A DNA stretch of 64,000 nucleotides, from NCBI RefSeq assembly GCF_022921055.1, contig NZ_CP095069.1, positions 1 through 64,000 of the forward strand, in the 5' to 3' direction. The stretch's first letter is position 1, and each line of letters starts with the position of its first letter. A program made the position numbers and the translations under genes. The notes beneath the pieces were generated by a model. The model was not told where the DNA came from and searched no databases. It saw only the letters and a list, made by a program, of their open reading frames with translations. The DNA is from Hymenobacter volaticus. Its GTDB lineage: Bacteria > Bacteroidota > Bacteroidia > Cytophagales > Hymenobacteraceae. Positions 25,421 through 48,709 of the stretch are shown here, one piece after another.

Positions 25421-26979
25421 TTACAGCTTGAATGCTTGGCCTGGGAACGTTGGGTCCTCGTAAAGAGGAGCTAATTGCTTCACTTGGCTTACCGAGTCGA
25501 AAACCAGAGCTTGGCGCCACGCTGGTGCGTACATCGGCCAGTCGGCTCCGGGCGTGCCCGTGGCTATGAAGCGCACCCAGCGCTGGTGCATTTGCCGGGA
25601 CAAGGCGCGCGCAGTTTCGGACTTGGTAGCAGCAGGCCCTAACGTGTTCCAAACGTAGCCTATTTCTTGGGCATGCACTGGGCCGGTGCCCCCGGAGACT
25701 GGTAATCGAAACGGTAGAGCCACACCGGCTGGCGGGCTTGCGCCAGCGCGTCCGCCAGCCGGTAGGAGGCCAGCCGGTAGAGGTAGTCGGTTGTGGTGCG
25801 CAGCCAAGCCTGGTCGGCAGGCTGGGTTTGGCGAGCCTGTTGATAGGCCTGCCATACGTGGTCGCCGTTGGCTCCAAATAAGGCCGTGAGCACCTCGGGG
25901 TTGGGCTCACGCAGCTCGGGCCAAAAGCCCATAAACAAAGCCGCTTCGTCTCGATTGGTGCCTATCAGCGCGCGCGGGGCATCTCGACTTGGGTGCGCTA
26001 AATATGTGAAGGGCATCTCGGGAATAGTGATGCCATCGTGCACAGGCCCAAAGAGCTGCAAGCCGCTGGGGCCAGCTGTTATCTTTTGCTGTGCCCGCAT
26101 CAGGATGGCAGTAGGCAAAGTGAGCAGTTGGTTGGCCTGATCGGGTCGCAGGTGCAGAGCGGCAAGCAGCCGGGCCGTAACGATAGCAGCAGTAGTGGTG
26201 TCGCGCACTGATTGCACTCCGCCGCTTTCCAGTATCACTTGCTTGAATAGACCACTAGCAGCAGGGGTCACCAACAAAGCACTCACCAGTTTGGCGCCCG
26301 CCGATTCGCCCATGACAGTAACCCGGGTGGGGTCGCCACCGAAGGCGGCAATATTCGTATGCACCCAGCGCAGAGCCGCCACCGCGTCTAGCAGGCCCGC
26401 GTTGCCCGATTGGCGGTATGTTGGACCAAGCAGGTGCCGTAGCTGTAAGAAACCTAAGCTGCCAAGCCGGTAGTTGATGCTAACGGCAACGATGCTGTCC
26501 TGACGCGCAAAGTTGGGACCCGGAAAATCGTCGCCGGACCCACCGGTAAAGCTGCCACCGTGCACCCACACCACGACGGGCTTACGACGGGCAGCCTTTA
26601 CCGAAGGCGTCCATACGTTCAGGGTCAGGCAGTTTTCTTGACCGAGCAGGCTAGTATCGCGGTTTTGCGCTGCTCTCGCCCCAAATGCTGTAGCCAACCG
26701 CACCCCGGTCCAAGGTGCAAGCGGCTGGGGTGGTAGAAAGCGCCCTTTTCCTACCGGCGACGCGGCGTAGGCTATTCCTTTGAATGATATCAAGCCTGTA
26801 GCATCGCGGGTGCCTTGCAAGCGCCCAGCCTGCGTCTGGCAGATGGGGCCAGCTTCCGGCACAGAAGGCACGGCCTCACTCGACAGCAGCCAGCAGCCAG
26901 CTAACAGAGATAGTTTTAGACCCTTAAGCAGGTGCTGTGCAGTAAAGTGAGACTTAAAAAAAGTGGCGGGAGCTAGCAT
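25421..26979 (-). pseudogene. Type-B carboxylesterase, frame broken near the C-terminus
   Basis: A secreted alpha/beta-hydrolase of the carboxylesterase type B family. Visible are an N-terminal signal (LKLSLLAGCWLLSSEAVPS), QTQAGRLQGTRD, VVVWVHGGSFTGGSGDDFPG (oxyanion region), the nucleophile elbow VMGESAGAK, and GTNRDEAALF near the acid residue. The frame ends at about 25660, after FDYQSPGAPAQCMPKK. The expected C-terminal part with the catalytic histidine (PVHAQEIGYVW) continues in another frame to a stop at 25421. One extra base in the C run at 25689-25693 gives SPGGTGPVHAQEIGYVW and a protein of 519 residues. The break removes the catalytic histidine unless it is a sequencing error, which I think likely. 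Confidence 0.85.
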
Positions 26980-27289
26980 ACAGAAAGGCAACGAACCGTC
27001 GGACGATGAAATACGCGGCTAATATGGCAACAAACTGCCACGCACAAGCCGCCAGCAATAGGGTTATTGTGCTTGCGCTAGTGACACGTAATCAATGATA
27101 CGGCTAGTTTGCTGTCCCTAAACCTTACTTGCTAAGCCAATATGCCACAATCGAAGCGCTGACGCTTAATTGCCTGCGGCGCAGTCAAGCTGCTACTTCA
27201 CGTCTTTTCTAGCCGGGCCGCCCTAGCCAAAGCTCTACCTAGCAGTTTCTACCTTAGCGGGGTAAGGAGCATAATGTATCGCTGCGCGC
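26980..27289. other. Intergenic region between divergent genes
   Basis: About 310 bases separating the carboxylesterase (minus) from the adenosine-deaminase-family gene (plus). Both promoters should lie here. I see no strong repeat, hairpin or small gene. Confidence 0.4.
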
Positions 27290-28445: not shown

Positions 28446-30316
28446 CTACTTGATTAGCAGCTCCGTTGGTGGACTTTTGCGGCCATTGGGCGCTACGGTT
28501 ACCGCCCGCACAGTAATCTGCCGGCTTTGGGGCACCGTAAACGGCTTGGTGTAGAGTTCGGTGGTTTCGTCGGGCATCTTCCCATCCAAAGTATAGCGAA
28601 TCTGCGAGCCTGGCACTAGGGTACGAAGCGTCAACACGGTTTTGTTGCCTTGCTTAACTACACTGGCGCTGTCTAGACCTAAGGGTTCGGGCACGCGGTA
28701 GTTGATTTTCTTGGCATCGAGGCGGGCAAATTGCTGACCCATACGGGGCAAGAAAGCATCGTAGCTTTTCAGGGCGGCGGGCGTCCAGGCTACTTCGGCG
28801 GCGGCCATAAAGCGCGGGAACAGCATGTACTCCGCTTTTTCTGGGGTCGTGATGTACTCGGTCCACATGTTGGCCCTACACCCATAATATGCTTTTGCTG
28901 CTCGGGCGTGAGTTCTTTGGGTAGCGGGTTGTAGGAATACACTTTCGCCAAAGGCAAGTAACCGCCAATCATGAGCGGCTCGTAGGGGCTGTGCGGCTGC
29001 GGGTTCTGACCGTAATCAAGGTAGAGGTTGGTGGTAGGCGTCATCACCACGTCGTGGCCGTGCTGGGCGGCCTCGATGCCGCCTTTCTCACCGCGCCAAC
29101 TCATCACCGTGGCGCTTGGCGCGATGCCGCCTTCCAGGATTTCATCCCAGCCAATCAGCTTTTTGCCCTTGCCTTCCAAGAATTTCTCGATGCGACGGTT
29201 AAACCAGCCTTGCACCTTTTCCACATCGGTGAAGCCTTCGCGCTTCATAATTTCTTGCACCGCCGCGCTTTCTTTCCAACGGGCTTTTGGGGCCTCATCA
29301 CCACCAATGTGAATGTACTTGCCCGGAAACAAGGCACTTACTTCGGTCAGCACATTCTCAAAGAACTGAAAGGTCGGCTCGGTGGGACACACAATATCCT
29401 CATTAACGCCCCACTTAGTCCAGGTTTGATAGGGCCCCGGCTTGCAAGCCAATTCGGGATACGCCGCCAGAATAGCTACCGAGTGGCCCGGCATTTCTAT
29501 TTCCGGCACAATAGTGACGTAGCGCTTCTGGGCATAGGCTATCACGTCCTTGATTTGCTCTTGGGTGTAGAAGCCCCCGTAAGGCGTGCCGTCGTACTTG
29601 AAGTCGGCTGGCGTTTTCATCTGTTGCTGCGCGCCAAGCAAGGTTTCCGAACGGAAGGCGCTGATTTCCGTGAGCTTCGGGTACTTCTTGATTTCGATGC
29701 GCCATCCCTGGTCGTCGGTCAGGTGCCAATGAAACGTATTCATCTTGTAAGCGGCCAAAAAGTCGATGTACTTCTTGACAAACGACACCGGAAAGAAATG
29801 GCGGCACACGTCGAGCATGCCCCCACGCCATTGAAAAGCGGGTTGGTCGGTGATGCGCACGTAAGGCACCTTGGCGGTAGCCGCGGCGCGGGGTGGCAGT
29901 AGTTGCAACAACGTCTGGGTGCCATAAAACAGCCCTGGTCCACCCGCCGCTGTAATCTTGACGCCCCCCTTATCGACCACAAGCTGGTAGGCTTCAGGAC
30001 TGGTTGTGGCGGCAGTAGCGAGGACGATTTGGGCCGTTTGGCGGTTGGTGGTGAGCGTGACCGTTTTGCCAAGCGGTGTTAGCATGCCTTGCAGCAGGGT
30101 GGCCACGTTGCGCTCAGCCGGGCTAACGGCGTACACGTTTATTTTTTGGGGCAGTACGTAGGTGGCGGCGTAGGCTTTGACCTCCCGTGGCAGGGGTACC
30201 AGCCCGAGGCTTTGCGCGGATATTTCTGATCCTTGGGCCAGCGCTATCTGGCTAGTTAATAGACCTGTGGCTAGCAGCCCGCATACCCGGGCTTTCAATG
30301 TAAGGTTAAAGAGCAT
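28446..30316 (-). pseudogene. Beta-N-acetylhexosaminidase (GH20), frame broken
   Basis: Removes terminal N-acetylglucosamine from chitin oligosaccharides or glycans. Signal peptide at 1-28 (LLATGLLTSQIALAQG), a GH20b-like N-terminal domain, then the catalytic barrel: FQWRGGMLDVCRHFFP, FHWHLTDDQGWRIEIKKYP, VPEIEMPGHSVAILAAYPEL and HIGGDEAPKARW with the catalytic Asp340-Glu341 pair. The frame ends after HIMGVGPTC, while the rest of the barrel and a C-terminal chitobiase-like domain (WTEYITTPEKAEYML, then IRYTLDGKMPDETTELY) continue in another frame to 28446. One extra base in the C run at 28874-28876 restores GVGANMWTEY and a 623-residue enzyme. The gene follows susD after a terminator, at the end of the chitin locus. 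Confidence 0.9.
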
Positions 30317-30426
30317 GCAGAGCTAAACTTGAAAATGAAGTGAGCGGCGGAGTGAGAATAGGAGAAGGGTAGTAACCGTATTACCCGCGCAGGGCGACAC
30401 TGTACTTCCTCTCCTTGGACTGTAAA

Positions 30427-30468
30427 GTAAAAGAAGCTTACACTACCTCGCAGTGAAGCTTCTTTTAC
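30427..30468 (-). terminator. Terminator after susD of the chitin locus
   Basis: The arms 30427-30444 and 30452-30468 pair over 17 bp with a single bulged A (GTAAAAGAAGCTT is shared by both arms in inverted form). On the minus strand it begins 23 bases after the susD stop and ends in a run of T. It separates susC/susD from the GH20 gene. Confidence 0.8.
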
Positions 30469-30490
30469 AATCAATTCAGAAAAGGTTAAC

Positions 30491-32068
30491 TTACTTGTCC
30501 CACCATACCCGGCCCGTTAGGTTATCACCACCCGTTACGGCGCCGCTGGCGGCGCGGTAGTTGTTGGGGTTGGAGGTGATTTCCGCAGTTGGGTAAGGGA
30601 AGCGGCGCGGAATCTGCCCACTGGTTGCGTTGTTGGGATACGATACTGGCGTGAGTACCGGGATGCCAGTGCGGCGCCAGTTCGACCACGACTCGTAGAA
30701 ATCTAGCAAGGTGTTGGTGTGGGCCCAATACTGCGTGTTAATCATTTGCAAGCCATTGCCAGCGTTGTAAGGATGCGCAGCCAGGTAAGTGGTAGCCTCC
30801 GCCGCGGGGATGGTCAATGCTGCATCGTATTGGCTGAGGCAGGTTATAGCAGCCGTTACGCCCGCATTGTAGTGCGCCACGGCGCTACCCAGGCCCCAGC
30901 GCTGTGCAGCCTCTGCTAGCAGCAGTTCCGACTCGGCATACGTCAGCACGAACGTCGGACCATTGCGCTTGATCATGCCCGGGCTCGGCGACGAATAGTC
31001 GGGAATTGAGGTGTAATCAGGCGCTGTCGACACATCGTATGCGGGCCGGCCACTTAAGTCCCGGCCATTAGGCAAACCCTTTTGCGCCGCGAAAGTGGCT
31101 ATAGGCGTCTGGCTCGGAGTTTTGGTGGCATCGCTGGTGTAGAGCCGCGTAACTGCGATTCGAGTTAGGCGCGGGTCGTTGTTGGTTTTCAGGTAGTCAA
31201 TGAAAGTCTTCGACCATTTCACGTAGTAGTGTTCCTGACCACCGTCGCCGAGCAGTACTTGGCTGTTGCGGTTCTGGGTGGTGCGTCCGCCAACCGCGTC
31301 GTGCAGCACAATGGCGTTGTCGGCGTTGCTTTGCATGGTTTTACCCTGCACCTGGGTGGCGTACTGCTTAGCAGTGGCCTCATTTACCTTGGTTAGGCGC
31401 ATGGCCATGCGCAAAATCAACGAATTGCCGAACCGCTGCCACTGCTCGATGTTGCCTTTGAAAAACACATCGTTGGCCGAAATGTCAGCTGCCGGATCGA
31501 GGGCCGCGGTGGCTTCGCTCACTTCCTTCAACAAGTCGGTGTAGATGTCTTCCTGCTTGTCGTACTTCGGGGTGATGACGCCGGTGTAGTAGCCTTGACC
31601 CGCCTCCACATACGGCACGTCGCCGTAGAGGTCAGTGATGCGCTCCATGATCAAAGCCCGCATGATGCGCGCCATCTGGTGCAGGTTTTTGTACTGCGGC
31701 TTGTTGCGGGTTTGCTCCACCAAGTCAGTTACCGACTTCACTTGCTCGCTGTAGCTTTTCTCCCAGTAAGCGGCCGTATAGCCCTCGTTGAGCAAGTATT
31801 TGTCGCCGGCCCAATAGCTGATCACCGTGGCCATGCCCTGCACAAACATCGAGCAGTGAATCAGATTGGCGCGCCAGGTTTCGTAAGCAAAGTCAGTACT
31901 GCCCGTGTACGTAAGCTGCGACTGCGTGAGCAAGTAATTGGCATCAAACGAGCTTTGGGTATAAGTCGCTGGATTGGTGTTGACGTCTTCGAAATTGTCG
32001 GTACAGCTACTGGCCAGCAACAGGGCGGCACTGGCTAGCACGGCATGTTTTGGAAATATGCTTTTCAT
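30491..32068 (-). CDS. SusD-like outer-membrane lipoprotein (SusD-like_2 type)
   Basis: Ligand-binding lipoprotein partner of the SusC receptor at 32114-35170. The start is ATG at 32068 (MKSIFPKHAVLASAALLLASSC), with the lipobox cysteine at residue 22; the upstream open frame adds no signal features. The sequence FEDVNTNPATYTQSSFDANYLL and the region LHQMARIMRALIMERITDLYGDVPYVEAGQG are characteristic of the SusD/RagB group with the SusD-like_2 layout. It ends with the usual WSNWRRTGIPVL and PRRFPYPTAEITSN segments. It follows susC by 45 bases. The presence of GH18, GH20 and a GlcNAc catabolic gene nearby suggests chitin oligosaccharides as ligand. Confidence 0.92.
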   Translation of the reverse strand: MKSIFPKHAVLASAALLLASSCTDNFEDVNTNPATYTQSSFDANYLLTQSQLTYTGSTDFAYETWRANLIHCSMFVQGMATVISYWAGDKYLLNEGYTAAYWEKSYSEQVKSVTDLVEQTRNKPQYKNLHQMARIMRALIMERITDLYGDVPYVEAGQGYYTGVITPKYDKQEDIYTDLLKEVSEATAALDPAADISANDVFFKGNIEQWQRFGNSLILRMAMRLTKVNEATAKQYATQVQGKTMQSNADNAIVLHDAVGGRTTQNRNSQVLLGDGGQEHYYVKWSKTFIDYLKTNNDPRLTRIAVTRLYTSDATKTPSQTPIATFAAQKGLPNGRDLSGRPAYDVSTAPDYTSIPDYSSPSPGMIKRNGPTFVLTYAESELLLAEAAQRWGLGSAVAHYNAGVTAAITCLSQYDAALTIPAAEATTYLAAHPYNAGNGLQMINTQYWAHTNTLLDFYESWSNWRRTGIPVLTPVSYPNNATSGQIPRRFPYPTAEITSNPNNYRAASGAVTGGDNLTGRVWWDK

Positions 32069-32113
32069 AAAGAGGTAAGTCGTTGAAGTGAACCGGTTGG
32101 ACAAGCACGAGCC

Positions 32114-35100
32114 CTAGAACTTGGCGCTCAAGTTGAGGCCCAGCGTCCGGGATGGTGGCACGCCACCTAGCTCCAAACCTTGCGAGAAGGCGTTGTAGCT
32201 GCCCTCGGGGTCGATGTTGTCGGTTAGGCGCCGGATGAAAAACAGGTTCCGAGCTACCAAACTCAGCGTCAGTCGCTGCACTTTGTTGTTGAACAGCGCA
32301 CTCGGGAATGAATAGCCCAGCGTTAACTGCCGCAGCTTGATAAAGCTAGCGTCCTGCACAAACTGCTTGGAGACGTTGTTGGCCAAGGTGCCGTAATAGG
32401 TGGCGGCGTCCACGTTGTCAGGCCCGAAAGTGCCCTCCCGGTTCTCCAGCGTTTCCTTGCGCAATCCGAAGATCGTGGCGTAGTAGTCGGTAGCCGAGAA
32501 GATCTTAGCGCCAAATTTCCCGTCGATCAGCACGCCCAGGTTGAAGCGTTTGTAGGTGAAATCGTTGCTCCAGCCGCCGGTCCAGGGGTGAAAGGCGGTG
32601 CCGAACGCCGTCAAATTGCCCCGCGCCGGTGTGCCATTGGGCGTCAGCGCAATGCTACCATCGGTGTTGTACTTGTAGTCGTATGCCAGCACTTGGCCGA
32701 AGGGCTTGTCTACCAGTTGCCCCACGAAACCTACGCCCGAACGCGAGGTAGCGTACACCGACTGTGTTTGGCCAGCGGCCAGTGAAATAACAGTGCTCTT
32801 GTTGTAGGCAGTATTAAACGACGAAGTCCAGGTGAAGTCGGTGGTTTTCACGGGCACCACGGTCAGCAGCATTTCTACGCCCTTGTTTTCTAATTCGCCC
32901 GCATTCAATACCGCACCCGAATAGCCAGATGTTATAGAGGAAGGCGCGTTTACAATCTCGTTGGTTGACTTCTTTTTATAGAAAGTCAAGTCCAGGCGCA
33001 CGCGGCTCTCGGCAAAACCGAGTTCGGTACCGAACTCAATTTCTGAGGCCTCTGAAGCTAGTAGGCCGCGGTTCGGAATATTAGCATTGTCGGGGTTGCC
33101 GAACGGTATGCCCAGCAGCGTCGACGACGACAGGGCATAACTCAGCTGCGTCTGGTAGGGATTGGTAGCCTGCCCCACTTTCGAATAGCCGGCCCGGAGC
33201 TTACCGAACGTCAGGAACTGAGGCTTCCAAAGCTCGGTAAACACAAACGAGCCGCTTACCCCTGGATACGTGGTGCTCAGGTCGTTGTCAACGCCGGGCG
33301 TGGCCAGCGTCGAAAACCAGTCGCGCCGGAGAGTGGCCGTCAGGAACAGAAACTCCCGATACGAGAAGTCCACCGAGCCGTACACCGACTGGATTTCCTG
33401 ATCGCTGAAAATGGGGAGCACCGACCGGGTTTTGGTGTTGCCAAGGGTGTTGATGCCGAAAATGGCGAAATCGGTACCGAAATTCTGGAAGCCTTCCTGC
33501 TTAGTGCGGCGGTAGCTGGCCCCTAGGTTAGGGGTGAACGAGAAATCTTCCCCAACCGTGAAGGTCTTGCCGACCAGCCCGTCGGCGTTGAGGTCAGTAA
33601 ACCGCGATGTTATTTCGGTGAGGCTACCCAGCGGACGGTAGGCCGTGCCGGAAGGAGTTACGTTGGTGATACGGTCCGAATACGCGTCGCGCCCAACCCG
33701 GCCCTGAAAAAACAAGCCGTTGTCAAGCGTATAGCGTGCTGACACCGACGAGAGCAGCCGCTCACGGTTGGTGTTGTTGACGAACTTGTTGGCCGCAAAG
33801 TAGGGGTTGGTATTATATACGTTGCCCGTATTGAAGGTCAGTTCGTTGCCATCTGGTTTAGTGCCCGGCTGCAAAGTGCGCACGTCCAAGCTGGTTGGTA
33901 GGAACGCTACGTTAAAGTTGGCGTTGCCTGCTCCGTCCGACAGAATCGGCCGGTTTTTGGCTTGCTCCAAAATGTAGTTGGCGCGCGCGTCAATGGTTAA
34001 GTGCTTGAACGGGTCAAACGTGCCTACAAAGTTGAACGTCTGCCGGTCGAGGCGCGAGTTCGGCACTACGGCTTTGTTGGACAAGTCGCTAGCCGACAAC
34101 CGGACCGAGCCCCCAGTGAAGCTTTTGTTGAAGGCGAGCGTATTAGTAAAGCTGCCCCCGTCGCGGTAGAAGTTGCGGATGTTGTCTTTCTGCGCCACGT
34201 AGGGCCGCTCTGTCCCATCAAATTGCACCACGTTGGAGCCATCGAGACGGCCGCCCCAGCTGGAGTTGCCCGATGTAGCGGCGGCGGTTGCCGAGGTGGG
34301 CTTCAGGTTGTTGGACCCTTGGCCGTATTCGTACTGCCAATCGGTAAGGTTGAACACCCGCTGCACCACATAGTTGCTGTTGAACTCCAGGCCGTCGTTG
34401 CCTTTGGCGCTTTTGGTGGTAATCAGAATTACGCCCGCCTTGGCCCGGTAGCCATATAGCGCCGACGCTGCGGCTCCCTTCAGCACCGAAATCGACTCGA
34501 TGTCGTCGGGGTTGATGTTGGAAATAGGGTCGCCGAAATCGGGAGCGTTGTCGTACTGGCCGCCGCTGTTGCCGATGGTCGCGCCAGCGCCGCCGCTAGG
34601 CTGGCTTTCTACTGGCACCCCGTTGATGACGTACAACGGCTGGTTGGTTTGGTTGAGGCTGGAGGCACCCCGAATAATCACGTTGCTCGACGAACCCGGT
34701 CCGCCCGAAGTGGAGTTTACGTTCAAGCCCGCCACTTTACCTACCAGCGAGTTAGCTACGTTGGTTTCGCGGGCTTCCGTGAGTGAGGTGCCTTTGATTT
34801 CAGTTACCGAGTAGCCCAGCGTTCTGCGGTCACGCGCCACGTTCAGGGCTGTTACCACTACTTCATTGAGCGTCTGGGCACTTTCAACCAGCGAAACGTC
34901 GATAACGGCTTGCGAACCTACAGCAACCGTTTTGGAATCGTACCCAATAGACGAGAAAACGAGCGTGGCATTGTCGGGCACGGAAATGGAATAGCCTCCA
35001 TCCGCATTCGTGCTAAGGCCCTGCTGAGTACCCTGCACAATAACAGTAACCCCCGGCAGTGCGCCCCCTTTCGAGTCGGTTACCTTGCCGGATACCGTTT

Positions 35101-35170
35101 TGGTTTGCGCCTGTGCTAAGCTGTGCAAGCCTAATACTGGCAGTAAAGTAAGCCAAGTAGATCTGTTCAT
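32114..35170 (-). CDS. SusC/RagA-type TonB-dependent outer-membrane receptor
   Basis: A 1018-residue outer-membrane importer, presumably for chitin oligosaccharides. Signal peptide at 1-21 (LLPVLGLHSLAQA), then directly the carboxypeptidase-regulatory-like domain (VSGKVTDSKGGALPGVTVIVQGT), the SusC motif LNEVVVTALNVARDRRTLGY, the plug (NVANSLVGKVAGLNVNSTSG, VIIRGASSLN, LYVINGVPV) and a barrel ending RTLGLNLSAKF with a terminal phenylalanine. Unlike the receptor at 3178-6636 it has no STN domain, and no FecI/FecR pair is adjacent. Control is therefore more likely through the LacI-type regulator; a copy of its likely operator lies about 510 bases upstream. Confidence 0.95.
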   Translation of the reverse strand: MNRSTWLTLLPVLGLHSLAQAQTKTVSGKVTDSKGGALPGVTVIVQGTQQGLSTNADGGYSISVPDNATLVFSSIGYDSKTVAVGSQAVIDVSLVESAQTLNEVVVTALNVARDRRTLGYSVTEIKGTSLTEARETNVANSLVGKVAGLNVNSTSGGPGSSSNVIIRGASSLNQTNQPLYVINGVPVESQPSGGAGATIGNSGGQYDNAPDFGDPISNINPDDIESISVLKGAAASALYGYRAKAGVILITTKSAKGNDGLEFNSNYVVQRVFNLTDWQYEYGQGSNNLKPTSATAAATSGNSSWGGRLDGSNVVQFDGTERPYVAQKDNIRNFYRDGGSFTNTLAFNKSFTGGSVRLSASDLSNKAVVPNSRLDRQTFNFVGTFDPFKHLTIDARANYILEQAKNRPILSDGAGNANFNVAFLPTSLDVRTLQPGTKPDGNELTFNTGNVYNTNPYFAANKFVNNTNRERLLSSVSARYTLDNGLFFQGRVGRDAYSDRITNVTPSGTAYRPLGSLTEITSRFTDLNADGLVGKTFTVGEDFSFTPNLGASYRRTKQEGFQNFGTDFAIFGINTLGNTKTRSVLPIFSDQEIQSVYGSVDFSYREFLFLTATLRRDWFSTLATPGVDNDLSTTYPGVSGSFVFTELWKPQFLTFGKLRAGYSKVGQATNPYQTQLSYALSSSTLLGIPFGNPDNANIPNRGLLASEASEIEFGTELGFAESRVRLDLTFYKKKSTNEIVNAPSSITSGYSGAVLNAGELENKGVEMLLTVVPVKTTDFTWTSSFNTAYNKSTVISLAAGQTQSVYATSRSGVGFVGQLVDKPFGQVLAYDYKYNTDGSIALTPNGTPARGNLTAFGTAFHPWTGGWSNDFTYKRFNLGVLIDGKFGAKIFSATDYYATIFGLRKETLENREGTFGPDNVDAATYYGTLANNVSKQFVQDASFIKLRQLTLGYSFPSALFNNKVQRLTLSLVARNLFFIRRLTDNIDPEGSYNAFSQGLELGGVPPSRTLGLNLSAKF

Positions 35171-35681
35171 AGATTTCAGACGACTATTTTGTGATTAGAA
35201 AACGCGGCGGGACAACTTCAAAAGCAAGATTTCCGAAGAAATTCAGCCGGTTTCGACAAAAGGCAGGCTGAAACCGGATACACAGAGAGTGTCTTCGCCT
35301 CAAAGCGAAGGGAAATAGAATATCTAAGACCAGACCCGAAAGCCTAGCGCCAAGCAATGCAATGACCTATTCTAGCAGCCTGAGCAGGAAACAGGCTGGC
35401 ACTTTTTATCAATAAAGCCCGCACCAAGTGCGGTAACTATACCTCTTAGCTTGAGGAGCTAAATGGAGCGTTGCAAACAGAGTAGCTGTCGTTGTTAGAG
35501 TGACAATGATGCGATACTTATTATCCTCAGAATCTGCTTGATCGTAGCCAAGCGGCGTACGATTGTTTTAAGCTGAGGGCCCCAACTCTTTTATGATGGC
35601 AAATAAGATTATTCAAACACTTAATTGACCACCTGTTCCAAACATACTGGTCTAGTCTGTGGAAAGCAAGTAGTTAAAGAA

Positions 35682-35703
35682 AAAAATGTGTGCGCACACG
35701 CAA
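35682..35703. promoter_or_regulatory. Putative operator of the LacI-type regulator (copy 1)
   Basis: Centred on the perfect 12-bp palindrome GTGTGCGCACAC at 35688-35699. The surrounding 22 bases are identical to those at 40485-40506 in the nagB/lacI gap. It lies upstream of susC and downstream of GH18 on the coding strand, which fits control of susC/susD. Confidence 0.65.
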
Positions 35704-35718
35704 GAAAATTTTACATGA

Positions 35719-35735
35719 GTTGCCGCACACGCAAC
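35719..35735. promoter_or_regulatory. Secondary operator-like site next to copy 1
   Basis: GTTGCCGCACACGCAAC carries the right half of the operator core (GCACACGCAA) and GTTGC/GCAAC complementary ends. It lies about 31 bases from the first site centre to centre, about three helical turns, and a similar weak second site accompanies copy 2. Confidence 0.45.
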
Positions 35736-35959
35736 TGCCTTTCACCAAGCACTTATTAGCACGTTCTAAGGCTTTTAAATCGATTTCTATGTTAACGCAA
35801 AAAGTATTCAGGTTTTTGCGATATAACTTTTCATAAATACCTGTGATTGGACGGTTTTCCTTTCAAATTAGACTAGGCTAGGAAACCTTGCCCTTAGTAA
35901 TGGCTTAGTTTCGCTCATGCTGTATACAGCTTAAACCAGAAGCATCAATCCTACCATGG

Positions 35960-36889
35960 CTAGTGAGTAGCAGGCTTTGTTGGAGCACGGCGCCGTACTT
36001 CCTCATGGATAGCTGAAAGCAGAGAGGTAGCACCAACTGCATCCTGCGACAGCTCCCAGATCATAATTCCACTGGCTTGATCCAAGGCCAGTTTGGTTTT
36101 GCTTTTGATCGTGGGCAAGCCGTTGTAGCCGACCCCGGAAAACAAATCCATCTTCGGGTCGGCACCTTGAGCTAGTAAGGCTGTAAACGCCACACCACCA
36201 GGCTGACCGTAAAAAGGCACACCCAATACCGTTTTGTTAACCGGCAAACCGCGTCCCTTCCAATAAGCGAGGGTTTGCACTGCGTCGGCATAGGTTGAGT
36301 GAGTTGGCGCTGGAGCGTCGTAAGCCATAATGTTCATGAAGTCGACGCAGTCGAACACACTGCTTGCTATGCCGGGCCCGGCCCAAGTGCCGCCCGCTAT
36401 TGCGGCTGTGAGCAGCTTACCTTGAGGACGAAGCTGCGCGGCTAATTGCTGCATCAAAGTGGCATAGCCGCTGGCTGTGCGTGCATCCGGGTGCTCCCAG
36501 TCCATATCAATACCATCGAGCTGGTATTCCTGCGCCAAACGCACCAAGTTGGTAACGAAAACGCTGGTAAGAGCTGAGTTGGCTCCGATAGAATCGAAGG
36601 CACTGTGGTTGCCATCATGCCAGCCACCCACCGAGACGAGTACCCGCACTTTGGCAGCGTGGGCGGCTTTTACTAGTTGTCTGAGTTTATCGGGATTCTG
36701 CATAGGCTCTAAACCACCGGTAGCAGTGGGATGCACAAAAGCGTAGTTGACGTGCGTGAGCTGAGCGAGCTGCGCCGGATTAATGTCGCCGCGCCAAGAC
36801 GGTAAGTAGCCCACCACCCGAAACTGGCCCTGCACCACCCTAGCTTGCAGCAGTAGGCAAGTCACTAGTAACCACAGTATTCTTTTCAT
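35960..36889 (-). CDS. Glycoside hydrolase family 18 (chitinase-like)
   Basis: A 309-residue secreted GH18 enzyme expected to cleave chitin or chitin oligosaccharides. ATG at 36889 gives a signal peptide (MKRILWLLVTCLLLQARVVQG). The barrel motifs are FRVVGYLPSWRG, THVNYAFVHP, VRVLVSVGGWHDG and the catalytic D-x2-D-x-D-x-E as DGIDMDWEHP with the acid/base Glu132, then VDFMNIMAYDA and VLGVPFYGQ. Only the catalytic domain is present, with no chitin-binding module. It starts 11 bases after the transporter stop codon, so the two are in one operon. Confidence 0.93.
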   Translation of the reverse strand: MKRILWLLVTCLLLQARVVQGQFRVVGYLPSWRGDINPAQLAQLTHVNYAFVHPTATGGLEPMQNPDKLRQLVKAAHAAKVRVLVSVGGWHDGNHSAFDSIGANSALTSVFVTNLVRLAQEYQLDGIDMDWEHPDARTASGYATLMQQLAAQLRPQGKLLTAAIAGGTWAGPGIASSVFDCVDFMNIMAYDAPAPTHSTYADAVQTLAYWKGRGLPVNKTVLGVPFYGQPGGVAFTALLAQGADPKMDLFSGVGYNGLPTIKSKTKLALDQASGIMIWELSQDAVGATSLLSAIHEEVRRRAPTKPATH

Positions 36890-36900
36890 AAGGTACTGGC

Positions 36901-38185
36901 TTAAGCGGTGGGTACGGCGTGCTTCACGGGTTTCTGCGTTTGGTAGGCATGTCCTTTCAAGGCGAAAAACAGCACATACAGATAGCACGGCACTAGCAGC
37001 AAATACGCCTGCTGCAACCCAATACTTTCGCTGAGTTTGCCATAGATGTACGGCAGCACTGCTCCACCCCCAATACCCATAATCAACAGGGCCGAACCTC
37101 GTTCTGTGAAGCTACCTAGACCTTTAATGCCCAGCGGGAAAATAGCGGGCCACATCAGCGAATTAGCCAGCCCGAGCAAAGCCACGAACAGCACCGACGT
37201 GTAGCCGTGAGTGAACACCACGCCCCCTGTGAACACCACGCCCACCAGAGCGCAAATCCGAAGGGCCATCTGCTGAGTCACGTACCGTGGAATGGCCCAA
37301 ATGCCCACGCAGTACCCAACCAGCATGGCTATCAGCGTGAGAGAAGTGAAGTTGCGAGCTATATCGAGGCTAATGCCCTGCGAGCGGCCATACTGACTGA
37401 TGGTGTCACCGGCAATCACCTCGACACCAACACAGCAAAAAATAGCGCCCACCCCAGCAGTAGATGTGGAAAGTGCCAGATGCTACCCGCCGGCTCTAGC
37501 GCACTAACTTCTGCTGCGTCCGGCTGCGTGGCAATCTCCGGCAAGCCCGACAGCCTAATCAACAGCGCGAGTACCAGTAGTGCCCCGGCCATCACCACGT
37601 AAGGAAAAACTACCCGGTCGGCTAACTCTTGCAGCAGTTCGGCTTTGGCAGCTGGCGAAATTGCTTTGGCCAGTTGGCCTTCTAACTCGGTAGCTCCCTT
37701 CAATACAACTGCACCTATTAGCACTGGACTAAGGGCTCCGGCTACTTTATTACAGATACCTAGGATACTAATGCGTTGGGCCGCACTTTCTATAGGCCCC
37801 AAAATGCTCGCGTACGGGTTGGATGCCGTTTGCAACAACGCTAGTCCTGCTCCTTGCACAAACAAGCCCGAGAGAAAGAGAGGAAACGACCGAATCTGCG
37901 CCGCCGGCACAAATACGAGCGCGCCCCCTGCCATTACTACCAAGCCGAGGGCCATGCCATTCTTGAACCCTGTTTTTTGCAGGATCAGCGAGGAAGGAAT
38001 CGCCAGAAAGACGTAGGCAATGTAAAAGGCAAACGTAACCAGCAGGGCCTGCGAATAGGTTAGTTCGCAGGCAATTTTCAGAAAGGGTATCAGCGTGCCG
38101 TTCAGCCAGGTGATAAACCCAAAAATGAAAAAAAGCGCGCCAATAATAGCCAGCGGGGGATAACGGACTCTCTAGCGTTGCTCAT
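36901..38185 (-). pseudogene. FucP-like MFS sugar transporter (GlcNAc permease candidate), two frame breaks
   Basis: A 12-helix inner-membrane symporter of the fucose/glucose-galactose (FHS) group; in this setting the likely substrate is N-acetylglucosamine or chitobiose. Typical motifs: LFFIFGFITWLNGTLIPFLK, ALLVTFAFYIAYVFLAIPSS, LFVQGAGLALLQTASNPYASILGP, VEVIAGDTISQYGRSQGI and LVGYCVGIWAIPRYV. The reading frame changes twice. The ATG at 38185 (MSNARESVIP) joins the body if one base is added to the G run at 38155-38159. The N- and C-terminal halves join at GVGAIFCCVGVEV if one base is added to the C run at 37452-37455. The joined protein has 428 residues, the normal length. Two breaks of the same kind in one otherwise conserved gene suggest sequence error. 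Confidence 0.87.
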
Positions 38186-38268
38186 TCGTAGTCAGACGGT
38201 TATGGGTAGCATTGTGTTTGCCTGTTGGCGGCACGACATCAAGCGCAAAACGGATATACCTCACCTGT

Positions 38269-38300
38269 CTAGCGCAGCATAGCATGCTATGCCGCGCTAG
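38269..38300. repeat. Near-perfect palindrome between nagB fusion and transporter
   Basis: CTAGCGC at 38269 and GCGCTAG ending at 38300 flank GCATAGCATGCTATGC; the only mismatch is A opposite C. It forms a 15-pair stem around a small loop and lies between the nagB-fusion stop and the transporter start, so it may limit read-through or protect the mRNA end. There is no clear T tract. Confidence 0.6.
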
Positions 38301-38328
38301 TTCAGTTGCTTTCTTTCAGTGGAATGTG

Positions 38329-40245
38329 CTAGAATCGGTGCCGCACGAATGCCTCGATGGCTTCGTATTCCGTGAGCCCCAGCTGATCGTAGAGCTTGGC
38401 GGTGGCGTGGTTGCGGTCTTCGGAGCGCTGCCAGAACTCGCGTTTGTCGTTGCCGGGGAATACGGCGCTATCTTTCTGCGACTGGTGCTTGAAGATGGCT
38501 TTACGCTTGCGCATCAACTCTTCGGGGCTAATGGGCACGGCCATCTCAATTTCCTCGACGTCCCATTCCTGCCAGGCGCCCCGGTACAGCCACAGGTAGC
38601 AGTCATCAAGCCATGCTTCCTTGCCCTTAAGGCGGCCGAGGGCCGCAAAAATGGCATCCAGGCACACGCGGTGGGTACCGTGGGGGTCACGCAAGTCGCC
38701 GGCCGCAAAAATTTGGTGCGGCTGAATTTCTTGCAGGATATCAACAACGGCTTGAATGTCGGCTTCGCCTAAGGGTTTTTTCTTTACCTGCCCTGTTTCG
38801 TAGAAGGGCATGTTCATGAAGTGTACGTTCTGTTCTTTTACGCCGCAAAAGCGGCATGCTGCTGCAGCTTCGCCTCGCCGGATCAGCGCCTTAATTTCTT
38901 GCACCAACGCGCTGTCTTCTTCACCAAGCTTTTTGTGCTTGAGAAACTCCACTACCTCAGCGTGTTGCTGCTGCATAGTTTCCACTCCCACGTTCAGCTT
39001 TTCCGCAAAGCCTAACGCAAAGTCGGCGTAGCGGCGCGCATCGTCGTCGAAGACAGCTAAGTTACCCGAGGTCTGATAAGCTACATGGACGTCGTGGCCC
39101 TGATCAACCAAGCGCAGCAGCGTACCACCCATTGAAATAACGTCGTCGTCGGGGTGGGGGCTGAAAATCAACGACCGTTTCAGTGCCGGCGCTGCCCGCT
39201 CAGGACGCTGCGTATCGTTGGAATTGGGTTTGCCACCCGGCCAACCCGTAATCGTGTGCTGAATGGTATTAAATACCTTGATGTTCAAGGCATAAGCATT
39301 ACCCGCTTCGGCTAGCAAGTCGCTTAAGCTGCCGTCCTTGTAATCCTCGTCGGTGAGTTTGAGAATGGGTTTATGCATCTTCAAGCTCAGCCAAATCACG
39401 GCTCGCCGGATTAGATTGTCGTCCCACAAGCACATGCCCACCAACCAAGGAGTTTTGATGCGAGTAAGCTCTAGGGCTGCCCATTTATCTACCACTACTT
39501 GCACGTGGGGGTGCTGTTGCAGAAAAGAAGCGGGCACCTCATCGGAGATCTTGCCTTCCACGGTTTCCTGCAGGATTTTGGCTTTGCCCTCGCCCCAAGC
39601 TAGCAAGATAATTTGCCGGGCCTTCATGATGGTGCCCACCCCCATGGTTAGCGCCCGTAGCGGCACATACTCTTCCTTGATGAAGTCTTTGGCGGCATCG
39701 GTGATAGTCAGTGGGTCGAGCTTTACCAGCCGGGTAGCCGAATTGATTGAGGAGCCTGGTTCGTTGAAACCAATGTGGCCGGTTCGCCCAATACCGAGCA
39801 ATTGCAGATCCAACCCGCCGCAAGCTTTGATCTGTTGCTCGTAAGCCAAGCAGTACTCTTTTACCTTTTCCACTGGCAAGGTGCCGTCCGGAATGTGAAT
39901 GTTTTCGGGCAGGATGTCGATGTGGTTGAAAAGCTGTTCGTGCATGAAATGCACGTAGCTCTGCAACTCATCGGGCTGCATGGGATAGTACTCGTCTAGG
40001 TTGAAAGTGACTACGTTGGCAAAACTCAACCCTTCCTCCCGGTGCAAGCGAATAAGTTCTTTGTATACACCAATAGGTGAGGAACCGGTGGCTAGCCCCA
40101 GTACGGCTTGTTCGCCTTTTTCCTGTTTGCTGCGGATTAACTCGGCAATTTCGTAAGCCACACTGACTGCGCCTTCCGCAGGGTCTTCGAAAATAGTTAC
40201 CGGCAGCTTCTCAAAGGTGGTCTCCGGATAATGTAAAACTTCCAT
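38329..40245 (-). CDS. nagB: Glucosamine-6-phosphate deaminase fused to a PIG-L/LmbE deacetylase domain
   Basis: The N-terminal 265 residues are NagB: VLGLATGSSPIGVYKELIRLH, VVTFNLDEYYPM, LLGIGRTGHIGFNEPGS and PASFLQQHPHVQVVVDKWAA, converting glucosamine 6-phosphate to fructose 6-phosphate and ammonia. After a linker of about 90 residues a second domain begins SLIFSPHPDDDVISMGGTLLRL, the metal-binding PHPDD motif of PIG-L/LmbE N-acetylglucosamine deacetylases, followed by GDLRDPHGTHRVCLDAI with the further histidine ligand. The total of 638 residues matches a fusion known in Bacteroidota. No separate nagA is in the window, so the second domain may supply a deacetylation, but its substrate is unproven. 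The gene is divergent from the LacI-type regulator. Confidence 0.93.
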   Translation of the reverse strand: MEVLHYPETTFEKLPVTIFEDPAEGAVSVAYEIAELIRSKQEKGEQAVLGLATGSSPIGVYKELIRLHREEGLSFANVVTFNLDEYYPMQPDELQSYVHFMHEQLFNHIDILPENIHIPDGTLPVEKVKEYCLAYEQQIKACGGLDLQLLGIGRTGHIGFNEPGSSINSATRLVKLDPLTITDAAKDFIKEEYVPLRALTMGVGTIMKARQIILLAWGEGKAKILQETVEGKISDEVPASFLQQHPHVQVVVDKWAALELTRIKTPWLVGMCLWDDNLIRRAVIWLSLKMHKPILKLTDEDYKDGSLSDLLAEAGNAYALNIKVFNTIQHTITGWPGGKPNSNDTQRPERAAPALKRSLIFSPHPDDDVISMGGTLLRLVDQGHDVHVAYQTSGNLAVFDDDARRYADFALGFAEKLNVGVETMQQQHAEVVEFLKHKKLGEEDSALVQEIKALIRRGEAAAACRFCGVKEQNVHFMNMPFYETGQVKKKPLGEADIQAVVDILQEIQPHQIFAAGDLRDPHGTHRVCLDAIFAALGRLKGKEAWLDDCYLWLYRGAWQEWDVEEIEMAVPISPEELMRKRKAIFKHQSQKDSAVFPGNDKREFWQRSEDRNHATAKLYDQLGLTEYEAIEAFVRHRF

Positions 40246-40484
40246 AGCTGGTTTTCGAGTTTAAAAATCAGGGTTTTAAGAACGAAGCAGGAAGGTCCCG
40301 TGCGGGAAAAAATAGATGGCCGCGGTAGCGCTGGCAACGGAGAGCATGCTGACCTGAGAAAACAAGTCACACGGGTAAAGACGACAGTTCAAACGTCGTC
40401 GCGTAACTGGACTTTGGTAAGCCGTAGAGATTGGGTTGATTCAAACGTAATCACCTCATTATTATAAAGCAAATAAATAAATGG

Positions 40485-40506
40485 AAAAATGTGTGCGCAC
40501 ACGCAA
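40485..40506. promoter_or_regulatory. Putative operator of the LacI-type regulator (copy 2)
   Basis: Contains GTGTGCGCACAC at 40491-40502 and is identical over 22 bases to the site at 35682-35703. It lies in the 494-base gap between divergent nagB (start 40245) and lacI-like (start 40740), a natural place for control of both. Confidence 0.7.
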
Positions 40507-40521
40507 ATTAAATTCGAGGGA

Positions 40522-40535
40522 GTGGGCGCACACGC
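40522..40535. promoter_or_regulatory. Secondary operator-like site next to copy 2
   Basis: GTGGGCGCACACGC differs from the operator core at one position and lies 31 bases from it, the same arrangement as the pair near 35.7 kb. Apart from these two sites I see nothing specific in 40246-40739. Confidence 0.5.
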
Positions 40536-40739
40536 ATTCTAAGTAATGGGATAGGATTACAAGAAGACTTTTTCTTAAGTTTAGAAATAAACCTAGGCGA
40601 CAGCATGCATAGTAAGTAAATTTGGGAGGTCTGAACCTCTACGCACCCTGAGGGCCCCTATACGGCGCCACTTTTTTGGGTTACGCTGGTACTCTATCAA
40701 AGGATAAGGCAGACTTTTCATTACTGGCAGAAAGCAATT

Positions 40740-41816
40740 ATGAGCAAGAACGGAGTGCGGCTGAAGGACATCGCAGCCAAGGCTAACGTGTCGGTGGGCA
40801 CAGTCGACCGGGTGCTGCATAACCGCGGCCGCGTGGCCGAGGATGTGCGCCAGAAGGTACTGCACATGATGCAGGAACTTGCCTATGAGCCCAACTTGCT
40901 GGCCCGCACGCTCGGAGCCAACCGCTCCTACCGCCTTGCCGTGCTCCACCCCGACCACACACTCGACCCTTATTGGGATGCTCCTTGGCGCGGTATTGCT
41001 CAGGCCGCCCGTGAGCTGCAATCCTACGGTATCAGCGTACTCAGCTTCCCCTACGTCCTGAGCCAGGTAGATTCCTTCCGCCAGCAGGCACAAGCCGCTA
41101 CCGACGCACAGCCCGACGGTATTCTGCTGGCCCCTTTGTTCTATCGCGAGGCGCTACACTTTTTTACCCTCTGGCAACAGGCGCAGATTCCCTACGTGTT
41201 GTTTAACACGCACATCGCCGAGGCGCAGGCCTTAAGCTATGTGGGCCAGGACTCATACCAGAGTGGGGTACTGGCTGGCAAGCTGCTACAGCTGGGCCAA
41301 TCGGCGCCAGCCACTTTCCTGATCGCCCACATCGGCGAGGATACGGCTAATGCTGTGCACATCACAGAAAAAGAGCGCGGCTTCCGCGACTACTTTGCCC
41401 GGCTGACGCCGGAGACAACTGCGGGCGGTAGCTACACGCTGCGCCGCCTCGAACTGCCTGACCCGAGTGAAGCCGCCTTTGCCCGCCAACTCACGGCGCT
41501 ACTCGACGAGCCAGCGGACCAGTTGCAGGGTATCTTCGTGAGCACGTCTAAGGCTTATGCTCTTGCTCCTTACCTGCAGGCATACCACCGCGAGCACCTA
41601 CGCCTAGTGGGTTATGACCTACTCGAGCAAAATATAGCGTTTCTGCACGAGAACGTGATTGACTTTTTGATCAATCAGAATCCGCAGCAGCAGGGCTACC
41701 GGGGCCTGTACGCACTGGCCGACCAGCTTGTCTTCAAGAAGCCAGTGGGTTCGATCCAAAACCTTCCCCTCGACATCATCACCAAGGAGAACGTGCACTA
41801 CTATCTCGACAAGTAG
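40740..41816 (+). CDS. LacI-family transcriptional regulator
   Basis: A 358-residue regulator likely to sense a chitin-derived sugar and control the surrounding locus. The N-terminal helix-turn-helix is textbook: VRLKDIAAKANVSVGTVDRVLHNRGRVAEDVRQKVLHMMQELAYEPNLLARTL, including the hinge helix. The rest is a periplasmic-binding-protein-like sensor (YRLAVLHPDHTLDPYWDAPWRGIAQAARELQSYGISV, DGILLAPLFYREA, FLIAHIGEDTANAVHITEKERGFRDYF, LRLVGYDLLEQNIAFL). The start is ATG at 40740. The palindromic sites at 40485-40535 lie about 205-255 bases upstream. The DNA target is inferred from their position. Confidence 0.93.
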   Translation: MSKNGVRLKDIAAKANVSVGTVDRVLHNRGRVAEDVRQKVLHMMQELAYEPNLLARTLGANRSYRLAVLHPDHTLDPYWDAPWRGIAQAARELQSYGISVLSFPYVLSQVDSFRQQAQAATDAQPDGILLAPLFYREALHFFTLWQQAQIPYVLFNTHIAEAQALSYVGQDSYQSGVLAGKLLQLGQSAPATFLIAHIGEDTANAVHITEKERGFRDYFARLTPETTAGGSYTLRRLELPDPSEAAFARQLTALLDEPADQLQGIFVSTSKAYALAPYLQAYHREHLRLVGYDLLEQNIAFLHENVIDFLINQNPQQQGYRGLYALADQLVFKKPVGSIQNLPLDIITKENVHYYLDK

Positions 41817-45716: not shown

Positions 45717-47102
45717 CTACGCTTTTGGCAACTTAGCTTCTACTGTTGCTGGAAACTCCAACCGAAAAACGCTGCCAACACTTTCTACCGATTGCACCTG
45801 AATGCTGCCTTTGTGTAGGTGCATAATTTGCTTGGCTAAGCTCAAGCCTATGCCTGACCCGTTTGGATGCGTGGTGAAAAATGGAATGAAAATGCTGTCC
45901 AACAAGTCAGCGGGGATGCCAGTGCCGTTATCTACAACTTCGAGAACAACCTGTTCTTTCTCCCCCATCCTCGCCAGCAACTGAATCTGCGGATAAGGGC
46001 GTCCTTCTACTGCGTGCGTAGCATTGAGAATCAAGTTGATCAGCACTTGTTCCATCAAGCGGCTATCGGCTTGTAGCAGCAAATCAGGGGGGTGCACGGA
46101 AATTAGCAGTTCAGTACGCTGCTCCGTGAGTTGACGCGTCAGTAAGGCCTGAATGCTATTAAACAGCTCCTGCACGTAAATAGTGGTCAGCAGCGGCGTA
46201 GTGATTTTGCTGAAATTGCGGTATACCTGGGCAAAATTCAGTAGGCCTTCGCTGCGGTGCTGAATGATGCTGATACCTTCTTCCACATCATCGAGCAAAT
46301 CGGGGTCGTAGCCGAGCGGCTCGGTGGCTTTCTGTTTTTCCAGACGCACATGACGACGTAGGGTATCGGCCAACGACGCAATGGGAGCCACTGAATTCAT
46401 GATTTCGTGGGTCATAACCCGTAGCAACTTTTGCCAGGCCTCGGTTTCGGTTTCGTCTAACGCATGGCTCACATTCTTGAAAGCAATAAGTGTGAAGTTG
46501 CGGCCTTGCAGTTTAAACGATGTGGCCGAGAGCAGCAGCTGCATGGTTTTTTGCTCCACCGTGAGTTTCACTATCACCGGGCTGCCGGGCGCAAGCTGCA
46601 TAATAGCGTGGTAGAGCACCGCATGGCGTTTTTGCAGCGCGTGAATATTGCGCAGGTAAGGCAGTTCAAGTGTTTGTTTAAACGACTCATTTACCCACTC
46701 TACATGCCCTTCTGCATCGTAGGAAATAATGCCGGTATCTATTAGCTCCAGCACCGTTTGCAGGTAGGTGAACTGCGCCTCTTTTTCTGCGCTGAGCTGC
46801 CGAAACGTGCTGTTGATTTGGTTGAAGGCTTGGTGGAGTTGCTTGAGGGAAGGATTGGTGTGCTCTTCGTTGAAGTGCTGGGAAAAGTCCCGGTATTTTA
46901 CCGCCAGAATAAAACTCGCCAACTCTTTGTTACTGCGGGTCACGTAGCGGGCCAGCTCCAGTACCAGCGCAATAATCAGGAAGCCAGCGAATAGTGCTAG
47001 GACGTACGAAGCCCGGTTCATGTAATACACTGCCCCATACAGCAACGCAAACAGCCCCAGGAGCCGAAGAAAAATGCCGATTTCGAGCCGTTTAAAGGTC
47101 AT
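45717..47102 (-). CDS. NtrB-type membrane sensor histidine kinase
   Basis: A 461-residue two-component sensor. Two N-terminal membrane helices (FLRLLGLFALLYGAVYYM and VLALFAGFLIIALVLELA, about residues 11-50) are joined by a very short loop. A linker and a PAS-like region (QTVLELIDTGIISYDAEGHVEWVNES) follow. The phospho-acceptor His232 lies in RVMTHEIMNSVAPI, and the ATPase domain has NLILNATHAVEG, VVDNGTGIPADLLDSIF and GSGIGLSLAKQIMHLH. There is almost no periplasmic sensor, so it probably reads the membrane or cytoplasm. Its start overlaps the end of the response regulator gene by 11 bases, so the two are coupled and work as a pair. Confidence 0.94.
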   Translation of the reverse strand: MTFKRLEIGIFLRLLGLFALLYGAVYYMNRASYVLALFAGFLIIALVLELARYVTRSNKELASFILAVKYRDFSQHFNEEHTNPSLKQLHQAFNQINSTFRQLSAEKEAQFTYLQTVLELIDTGIISYDAEGHVEWVNESFKQTLELPYLRNIHALQKRHAVLYHAIMQLAPGSPVIVKLTVEQKTMQLLLSATSFKLQGRNFTLIAFKNVSHALDETETEAWQKLLRVMTHEIMNSVAPIASLADTLRRHVRLEKQKATEPLGYDPDLLDDVEEGISIIQHRSEGLLNFAQVYRNFSKITTPLLTTIYVQELFNSIQALLTRQLTEQRTELLISVHPPDLLLQADSRLMEQVLINLILNATHAVEGRPYPQIQLLARMGEKEQVVLEVVDNGTGIPADLLDSIFIPFFTTHPNGSGIGLSLAKQIMHLHKGSIQVQSVESVGSVFRLEFPATVEAKLPKA

Positions 47103-48474: not shown

Positions 48475-48709
48475 TAGAACTGTTGCGAATGAGGGATGAA
48501 AAATGGGTAGTAGTCTAGCCAAGAGCGCCTTACCTGAAAAGCAATAGCGTCAAAAGTTGTCACGCTAAGCTTAGCAAAGCTAGCGGTTCATGCAGGTGCT
48601 TACTCGGATAGATACTAAGTACTCGAATACCCACCACAAACTGTACTAATTTACAAAAACGCCCTTCGCAGCTCGCTAGGCGAGTTTTCAGGCAGGTAGC
48701 TACTTTAAA

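Follow-up and report, generated by a model that had tools for sequence, protein, structure and literature searches.

Background

In Bacteroidota, the control of SusCD systems has mostly been described in terms of two-component hybrids, extracytoplasmic function (ECF)/anti-sigma pairs and SusR-like proteins. The locus considered here occupies positions 28446-41816 of a window from Hymenobacter volaticus, the window being the whole stretch analysed, that is, the first 64 kb of the 114-kb contig C9 (the genome has 7.1 Mb in 10 contigs). Its minus strand encodes a NagB-LmbE fusion, a major facilitator superfamily (MFS) transporter, GH18, SusC, SusD and GH20 proteins, and a lacI gene is divergent from nagB. 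On balance, this protein is probably a dedicated LacI/GalR-type regulator of the chitin/N-acetylglucosamine (GlcNAc) locus, which would act at two promoters as tandem dimers in contact with RNA polymerase, with activation as the likely result.

Several described systems share parts with this locus; the comparisons below draw on excerpts of the cited papers. The ChiUL of Flavobacterium johnsoniae likewise combines GH18, GH20, NagB, SusCD and an inner-membrane transporter, but is run by the two-component system CusSR, whereas a LacI-type protein is present here (PMC5127042). NanR of Bacteroides thetaiotaomicron is also a Bacteroidota regulator of GlcNAc use, but is a ROK-family protein of sialic acid/GlcNAc metabolism, whereas the regulator here is of LacI type (PMC3878776). 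Tandem-operator LacI regulons such as those of RafR and ScrR have CG-centred even palindromes and paired sites, as here (PMC4052901); LacI inter-site distances in that study (Ravcheev 2014) peak at 13, 22 and 32 bp, the last two being read as cooperative binding. Distances to start codons are given for those regulons, whereas here it is the distance to a predicted promoter that is fixed. Bacteroides forms one taxonomic group in the study, and the word NagR is absent from its main text.

As an activator, CcpA binds 14 bp upstream of the -35 box, and the proposed activation sites of AraQ/MalR1 at eno and pyk lie 15-16 bp upstream of it (PMC6882875). The operators of H. volaticus have a similar position, but CcpA and AraQ act on central metabolism in Gram-positive bacteria, activation by AraQ being unconfirmed by its mutant, whereas the setting here is a single local locus for chitin, with SusCD and a promoter of Bacteroidota type. 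The upstream operator of GalR in the gal operon lies at -60.5 (here about -59, as predicted), but GalR has in addition an internal operator at +53.5 and loops the DNA with the aid of HU (PMC4693257), and an internal site was not seen here. Searches of open-licence PMC literature turned up no description of this regulator and none of a Bacteroidota activator of LacI type. Each component is of a kind already described, including tandem LacI sites spaced near 32 bp; what is new is their combination and the fixed upstream geometry.

Results and discussion

Paired operators upstream of two promoters

The regulator gene, the operators and the predicted promoter elements are as follows.

40740..41816, plus strand: LacI/GalR-family regulator, 358 amino acids (PF00356, 55.8 bits, cut-off 27; PF13407, 115.8 bits, cut-off 35.1)
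40485..40506, minus strand: proximal operator of the nagB promoter, 12-bp core at 40491-40502, conserved across genus loci
40522..40533, minus strand: distal operator of the nagB promoter, one mismatch, 31 bp from the proximal operator in the same orientation
40470..40472, minus strand: -33 element TTG of the nagB promoter (predicted)
40442..40449, minus strand: predicted nagB-promoter -7 element, TACGTTTG (TAnnTTTG), with 41 nt between it and the palindrome
35682..35703, minus strand: proximal operator of the susC promoter, 12-bp core at 35688-35699
35719..35730, minus strand: weak distal operator of the susC promoter, three mismatches, 31 bp from the proximal operator
35667..35669, minus strand: -33 element TTG of the susC promoter (predicted)
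35639..35646, minus strand: predicted susC-promoter -7 element, TATGTTTG, with 41 nt between it and the palindrome

The first-pass annotation had reported a 22-base sequence, AAAAATGTGTGCGCACACGCAA, only in front of susC and in the nagB/lacI gap. A genome-wide scan bears this out: the sequence was confirmed at both 35682-35703 and 40485-40506 and occurs just twice, because its 12-bp core has exactly three exact copies (about 0.42 expected at uniform base content) and the third, at C1:1704900, has other flanks. That copy lies within a 271-residue open frame reading, by eye, as a MerR-type helix-turn-helix (HTH) protein. The core is an even palindrome with a central CG (half-sites GTGTGC and GCACAC), following the CG rule of PMC4052901. 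The weaker second site that had been placed about 31 bases beyond each copy is found at exactly 31 bp in both cases, with one mismatch on the nagB side and three on the susC side, where the genus consensus of the distal site is a weakened TGCGTGTGCGG version.

With one mismatch allowed, the core matches 11 places genome-wide as against 10 for the reversed pattern, so that such sites mean little by themselves, and they were rejected as further regulon members for want of any excess. Five of the seven that lie outside the window are in long open frames, the exceptions being C1:3495832 and C2:252679. The site at C1:3495832 is upstream of an open reading frame (ORF) that looks PorV-like by eye.

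Sigma-ABfr promoters reportedly have a -7 element TAnnTTTG and a TTTG near -33 (PMC7366714). Read along the transcribed strand, the two window promoters share exactly one layout: the palindrome, 18 nt, TTG, 20 nt and TAnnTTTG. The 18 nt, counted from the 12-bp core, are close to the 14-16 bp of CcpA and AraQ. If the -7 box is assumed to start near -12, the operator centres fall at about -59 and -90, estimates that depend on predicted start sites. This position of the operators, at a fixed distance upstream of a -33/-7 promoter, is absent from the first-pass account.

A possible -7 box of lacI itself (TAAATTTG, 40617-40624, plus strand) lies away from the operators. Among 30 loci, TAnnTTTG occurs 36-51 nt before the lacI start in 12, elsewhere in eight (at -123 in the window) and not at all in 10. 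In the 12 loci where it is far from the operators, the operator pair probably does not serve lacI, and autoregulation through the same pair appears unlikely in many loci.

Conservation across Hymenobacter genomes

Orthologues of the regulator (68-87% identity) were found in 35 of 120 genus genomes, the window genome included, and the stretches around the gene were compared for the other 34. In most loci the same palindrome, exact or near, is present both in the nagB/lacI gap and about 400-610 nt before susC. A perfect 12-bp palindrome is common to 24 of 30 orthologous loci, whereas in a control of 30 loci of paralogous LacI no CG-centred 12-bp palindrome was common to more than three, a comparison that addresses chance palindromes rather than geometry.

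The geometry is equally regular. Promoters were scripted in 33 of the 35 loci (58 rows), and the gap from palindrome to -7 box is 41 nt in 36 rows, 40 in 13, 42 in six and 39 in one; the two remaining rows (37 in L066 and 38 in L065) are wrong-strand picks with a true gap of 41. Wherever TTG was placed at 16-19 (54 of 58 rows), its distance to the -7 box is 23. A tandem partner with at most three mismatches accompanies 50 of the 58 rows, at 31 bp in 37, 32 in eight, 30 in four and 33 in one. The sites thus form pairs near 32 bp that are conserved among orthologues, as expected of tandem operators (near 22 or 32 bp), and lie where an upstream activator would, upstream of the -33 box with a gap of 39-42 nt and a mode of 41, as measured on predicted promoters. 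In alignments of 21 susC and 24 nagB leaders, no third conserved site was seen over or downstream of the promoters. The sequence comparisons point clearly to the identity of the operator, its link to the regulator and the fixed promoter geometry.

The susC leader measures about 460 nt from the predicted start site to the start codon (35170-35640), and relatives also have long leaders. It was considered as a conserved RNA and rejected: the 21-leader alignment is poorly conserved past the promoter, apart from a short block resembling AAAAGTCTTATT (RNA families were not searched).

Some loci differ in gene content. In seven (L081, L082, L083, L101, L105, L106 and L107) the regulator stands beside a different SusCD pair (about 40-44% identity) and the nagB fusion was not found in the compared stretch; all seven have at least one operator-type site. 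G018, G054, G056 and G116 have no detected transporter gene separating nagB from GH18, and a susC-side site was likewise missing at one mismatch; it looks as though the whole gene run were driven from the nagB promoter in these genomes.

A composite of operator and -7 box, GTGTNCGNNCAC-N39-42-TAnnTTTG, was searched for in the 120 genomes and is present in 28, comprising 27 of the 35 with the regulator and one of the 85 without it (Fisher p ~1e-18, kinship ignored). It matches 49 times (the reversed pattern, three times), and no genus genome has more than two promoters marked by it. Judged by their coordinates, 47 of these matches (window included) fall within the regulator's own stretch; of the others, one is on a small separate contig of G037 before a susC of 79% identity, and one is inside a long open frame of G040, which lacks the regulator. 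Among the eight LacI-positive genomes without a match, six keep the geometry with a changed core base or a -7 box ending in TTTA, and the others are G009 and G023. G104 encodes a nagB fusion of the same type (85%) yet lacks both a LacI orthologue and a composite match.

In the order as a whole, the composite occurs in 25 of 390 genomes, including beside homologues of 49-58% identity outside the genus. For matches in G289, G301, G348 and G451, no LacI was detectable within 1.5 kb (one more G289 match was outside this check). The matches in G040 and G270 lie within long open frames and look like chance occurrences in coding sequence.

The regulator and covariation of its recognition helix with the operator

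The regulator appears to be an ordinary LacI-fold protein. PF00356 and PF13407 identify, respectively, the LacI-type N-terminal HTH and an effector domain resembling sugar-binding proteins. In the structure model (pLDDT 87) a hinge helix is predicted at residues 53-59, at low confidence (pLDDT below 50), and the chain stops at residue 358, right after the sugar-binding domain, with no tetramerization helix. The best Foldseek match of the model is 3gbv, followed by sugar-binding proteins including GanP; these are general sugar-binding folds, which indicate no specific ligand. A GlcNAc-derived ligand would follow solely from the target genes.

The recognition helix reads VSVGTVDRV. In 80 named Bacteroidota loci, of which residue 19 was readable in 77, sites were sought in about 1 kb upstream, and residue 19 was found to shift with the operator core, Val being associated mostly with GTGTGCGCACAC and Lys with GTGTTCGA[A/G]CAC. 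A GTG..CG..CAC site is present in 22 of 24 Val19 loci, none of which has TTCGA, whereas five of six Lys19 loci have a site and all of these are TTCGAA or TTCGAG. All six Lys19 loci are from Dyadobacter, and 13 of the 24 Val19 loci are from Hymenobacter. L146, a Lys19 homologue from a different genus within the window's family, has GTGTTCGAACAC and GTGTTCGAGCAC 31 bp apart, 40 nt from a -7 box. Such covariation makes a stronger link between protein and site than their proximity by itself.

In the same 80 loci, 33 palindromes lie 38-43 nt before TAnnTTTG, 22 of them with a tandem partner, whereas twelve other distance windows gave 2-17 palindromes and 0-4 with a partner. Seventeen of the 22 paired palindromes are from Hymenobacter and five from outside it (L235, L239, L256, L274 and L298), and the fixed geometry is also kept at some homologues in other Bacteroidota. 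In distant Val19 homologues (43-48%; L285, L286, L289, L290, L293 and L296), the palindrome lies close to the lacI start, and the operator is possibly used differently there.

Because orthologue footprinting, presence/absence across the 120 genomes and recognition-helix covariation agree, there is a strong case for a genuine regulon made up of a single regulator, its operator and nearby targets, as the first-pass annotation had proposed.

Mode of control and alternative explanations

In the proposed mechanism, the regulator would act on one promoter serving the nagB fusion, the transporter and GH18, and on a second serving susC, susD and GH20, if the transcription units extend this far. Two dimers would bind side by side on the tandem palindromes, 31 bp or three helical turns apart, both upstream of a sigma-ABfr promoter and centred near -59 and -90. 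That both lie on one DNA face is plausible, because 31 bp is close to the known 32-bp LacI inter-site peak. The proximal dimer would touch RNA polymerase, most likely the alpha C-terminal domain, which could be accommodated on the A/T-rich stretch between the operator and the -33 box. With a chitin- or GlcNAc-derived sugar bound, activation would be the likeliest outcome. Since the operators lie at a fixed distance upstream of a -33/-7 promoter, plain occlusion is not a likely mechanism, and since neither promoter has a third copy over or below it, the layout does not suggest a block of the core promoter; steric block of the promoter is thus unlikely.

As to the direction of control, activation is favoured over repression by contact, and several points weigh against it. 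Most LacI-family proteins are repressors, and LacI-family sugar regulators usually act by repression. The -33/-7 boxes are near consensus, so that the promoters may not need help; these promoters are themselves predicted from the consensus. Six of the 58 rows, each a susC-side promoter, lack a partner site (the two wrong-strand rows set aside), and in two of the 35 loci (G009 and G023) the proximal palindrome is degenerate and the distal one intact. Outside the Val19 and Lys19 groups, sites were found in only six of 29 Thr, two of seven Ala, one of three Ile and one of four Pro loci, and in none of four single other residue types. In the araQ mutant, genes with activator-like sites were not significantly changed, and other proposed AraQ sites lie 33-35 bp upstream (PMC6882875). 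GalR at -60.5 (operator OE), on the same face as gal P1, inhibits P1 by contact (PMC4693257). Repression with the same regulator, operators and targets, in which the upstream dimer would stall polymerase by contact until released by a GlcNAc-derived sugar, is accordingly a serious candidate, if a somewhat unlikely one: the upstream position also fits the LacI-family activation reported in PMC6882875, and the 21 susC and 24 nagB leaders carry no operator over or downstream of the promoters.

Other explanations are less likely. The genome encodes 13 further LacI-family matches, any of which might read the sites and make the neighbouring lacI incidental; however, the agreement of presence and absence over 120 genomes, the covariation of the recognition helix and the case of G104, with the fusion but neither regulator nor composite, make this highly improbable. 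The first-pass annotation had suggested a cooperative or looped complex, of which looping is unsupported; two dimers sharing one face are plausible. An operator common to two promoters 4.8 kb apart would suit looping by a LacI tetramer, either between the promoters or between the tandem sites, but 31 bp is short for a loop and the predicted protein, ending at residue 358, appears to lack the tetramerization helix; we regard looping as very unlikely. It is less remote, though still improbable, that the regulon extends to N-glycan use on contig C2, where GTGTGCGCGCAC at L012:9680 (C2:252679; one mismatch) lies in the gap that separates an asparaginase gene from a ROK kinase/GH92 mannosidase pair (names assigned by eye from ORFs), with similar asparaginase-gap sites in G057 and G039. 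Against this, just three of 27 close (at least 73%) asparaginase loci have a similar site, the C2 site does not have the operator-promoter spacing, and one-mismatch sites are at chance level genome-wide.

In G039 (L061 and L159), an asparaginase gene lies less than 1 kb from the LacI gene on the same contig, so that N-glycan genes and regulator adjoin.

Gene content of the locus

The genes were identified from Pfam and NCBIfam profile matches.

38329..40245, minus strand: NagB-LmbE/PIG-L fusion (glucosamine-6-phosphate deaminase plus deacetylase-like domain; NF002557, 1060.7 bits; PF01182, PF02585)
36901..37955, minus strand: gluP/NagP-like MFS sugar transporter, split into two or more overlapping ORFs in different frames (36901-37452 and 37416-37955)
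35960..36892, minus strand: GH18 chitinase-family protein (PF00704, 135.3 bits); start taken from the sister genome, the ORF list having 36988
32114..35170, minus strand: SusC-type TonB-dependent transporter (TIGR04056, 551.6 bits)
30491..32104, minus strand: SusD-like lipoprotein (PF12771, PF12741)
28446..30316, minus strand: GH20 beta-N-acetylhexosaminidase (PF00728 in both pieces), frame broken near 28790-28868

The SusC/SusD pair beside glycoside hydrolases (TIGR04056, PF12771, PF00704, PF00728) identifies a SusCD polysaccharide utilization locus. Profiles support the GH18, GH20, SusC, SusD, NagB fusion and LacI assignments made earlier; the transporter, earlier labelled FucP-like, scores higher with the gluP and NagP models than with fucP. 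The absence of a FecI/FecR pair from the SusCD, also suggested at first pass, is corroborated for FecR: none adjoins it, the nearest of five in the genome being at C9:2416, about 30 kb off (FecI was not searched for), and Pfam, with matches considered at E up to 0.001, shows SusC to be without an STN signalling domain. CusSR-like two-component genes were not recognized among the ORFs of 28446-41816 (ORF list, Pfam). Outside the locus, 4 kb past lacI, ORFs at 45717-48522 resemble, by eye, a sensor kinase and an NtrC-type response regulator.

Several genes are split into overlapping or adjacent ORFs, namely GH20, the MFS transporter, a carboxylesterase-like gene (25421-26991) and a GH2 mannosidase-like gene on contig C2 (L012:4288-6898), the latter two named by eye. 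In the sister genome (L060) the transporter is a single intact ORF of 428 amino acids. That several genes of a single assembly are interrupted points to indel errors, with decay as the alternative.

The NagB-LmbE fusion and implications

NagA scores over its family cut-off in 43 of 120 genomes, including 20 of the 35 with the regulator, the window genome among them (C7:110724). The other 15 LacI-positive genomes have no NagA over that cut-off, two of them being incomplete (G028, 82%; G005, 94%). The NagB fusion is found in 111 of 120 genomes at a loose threshold, in some as weak matches only. Its LmbE domain may stand in for NagA, because it retains the HPDDD and DPHGTH motifs, which we take to be metal-binding; counting against such replacement, a second fusion type (about 64%) lies beside NagA in certain genomes, G059 and G014 among them.

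Taken jointly, a tentative and rather doubtful picture would be that a Bacteroidota clade of LacI proteins has turned into promoter-upstream activators with tandem operators, while NagB-LmbE performs both deacetylation and deamination of GlcNAc-6-phosphate and makes NagA dispensable. If true, this LacI clade would take the place of the two-component and ECF/anti-sigma systems by which SusCD loci are usually controlled. The locus offers a compact, readable alternative, with one protein, one operator, two promoters of identical geometry and natural variants of operator and recognition helix. It allows a clean test of whether LacI-family proteins activate sigma-ABfr promoters, and may provide a chitin-sensing switch for bacteria with few genetic tools.

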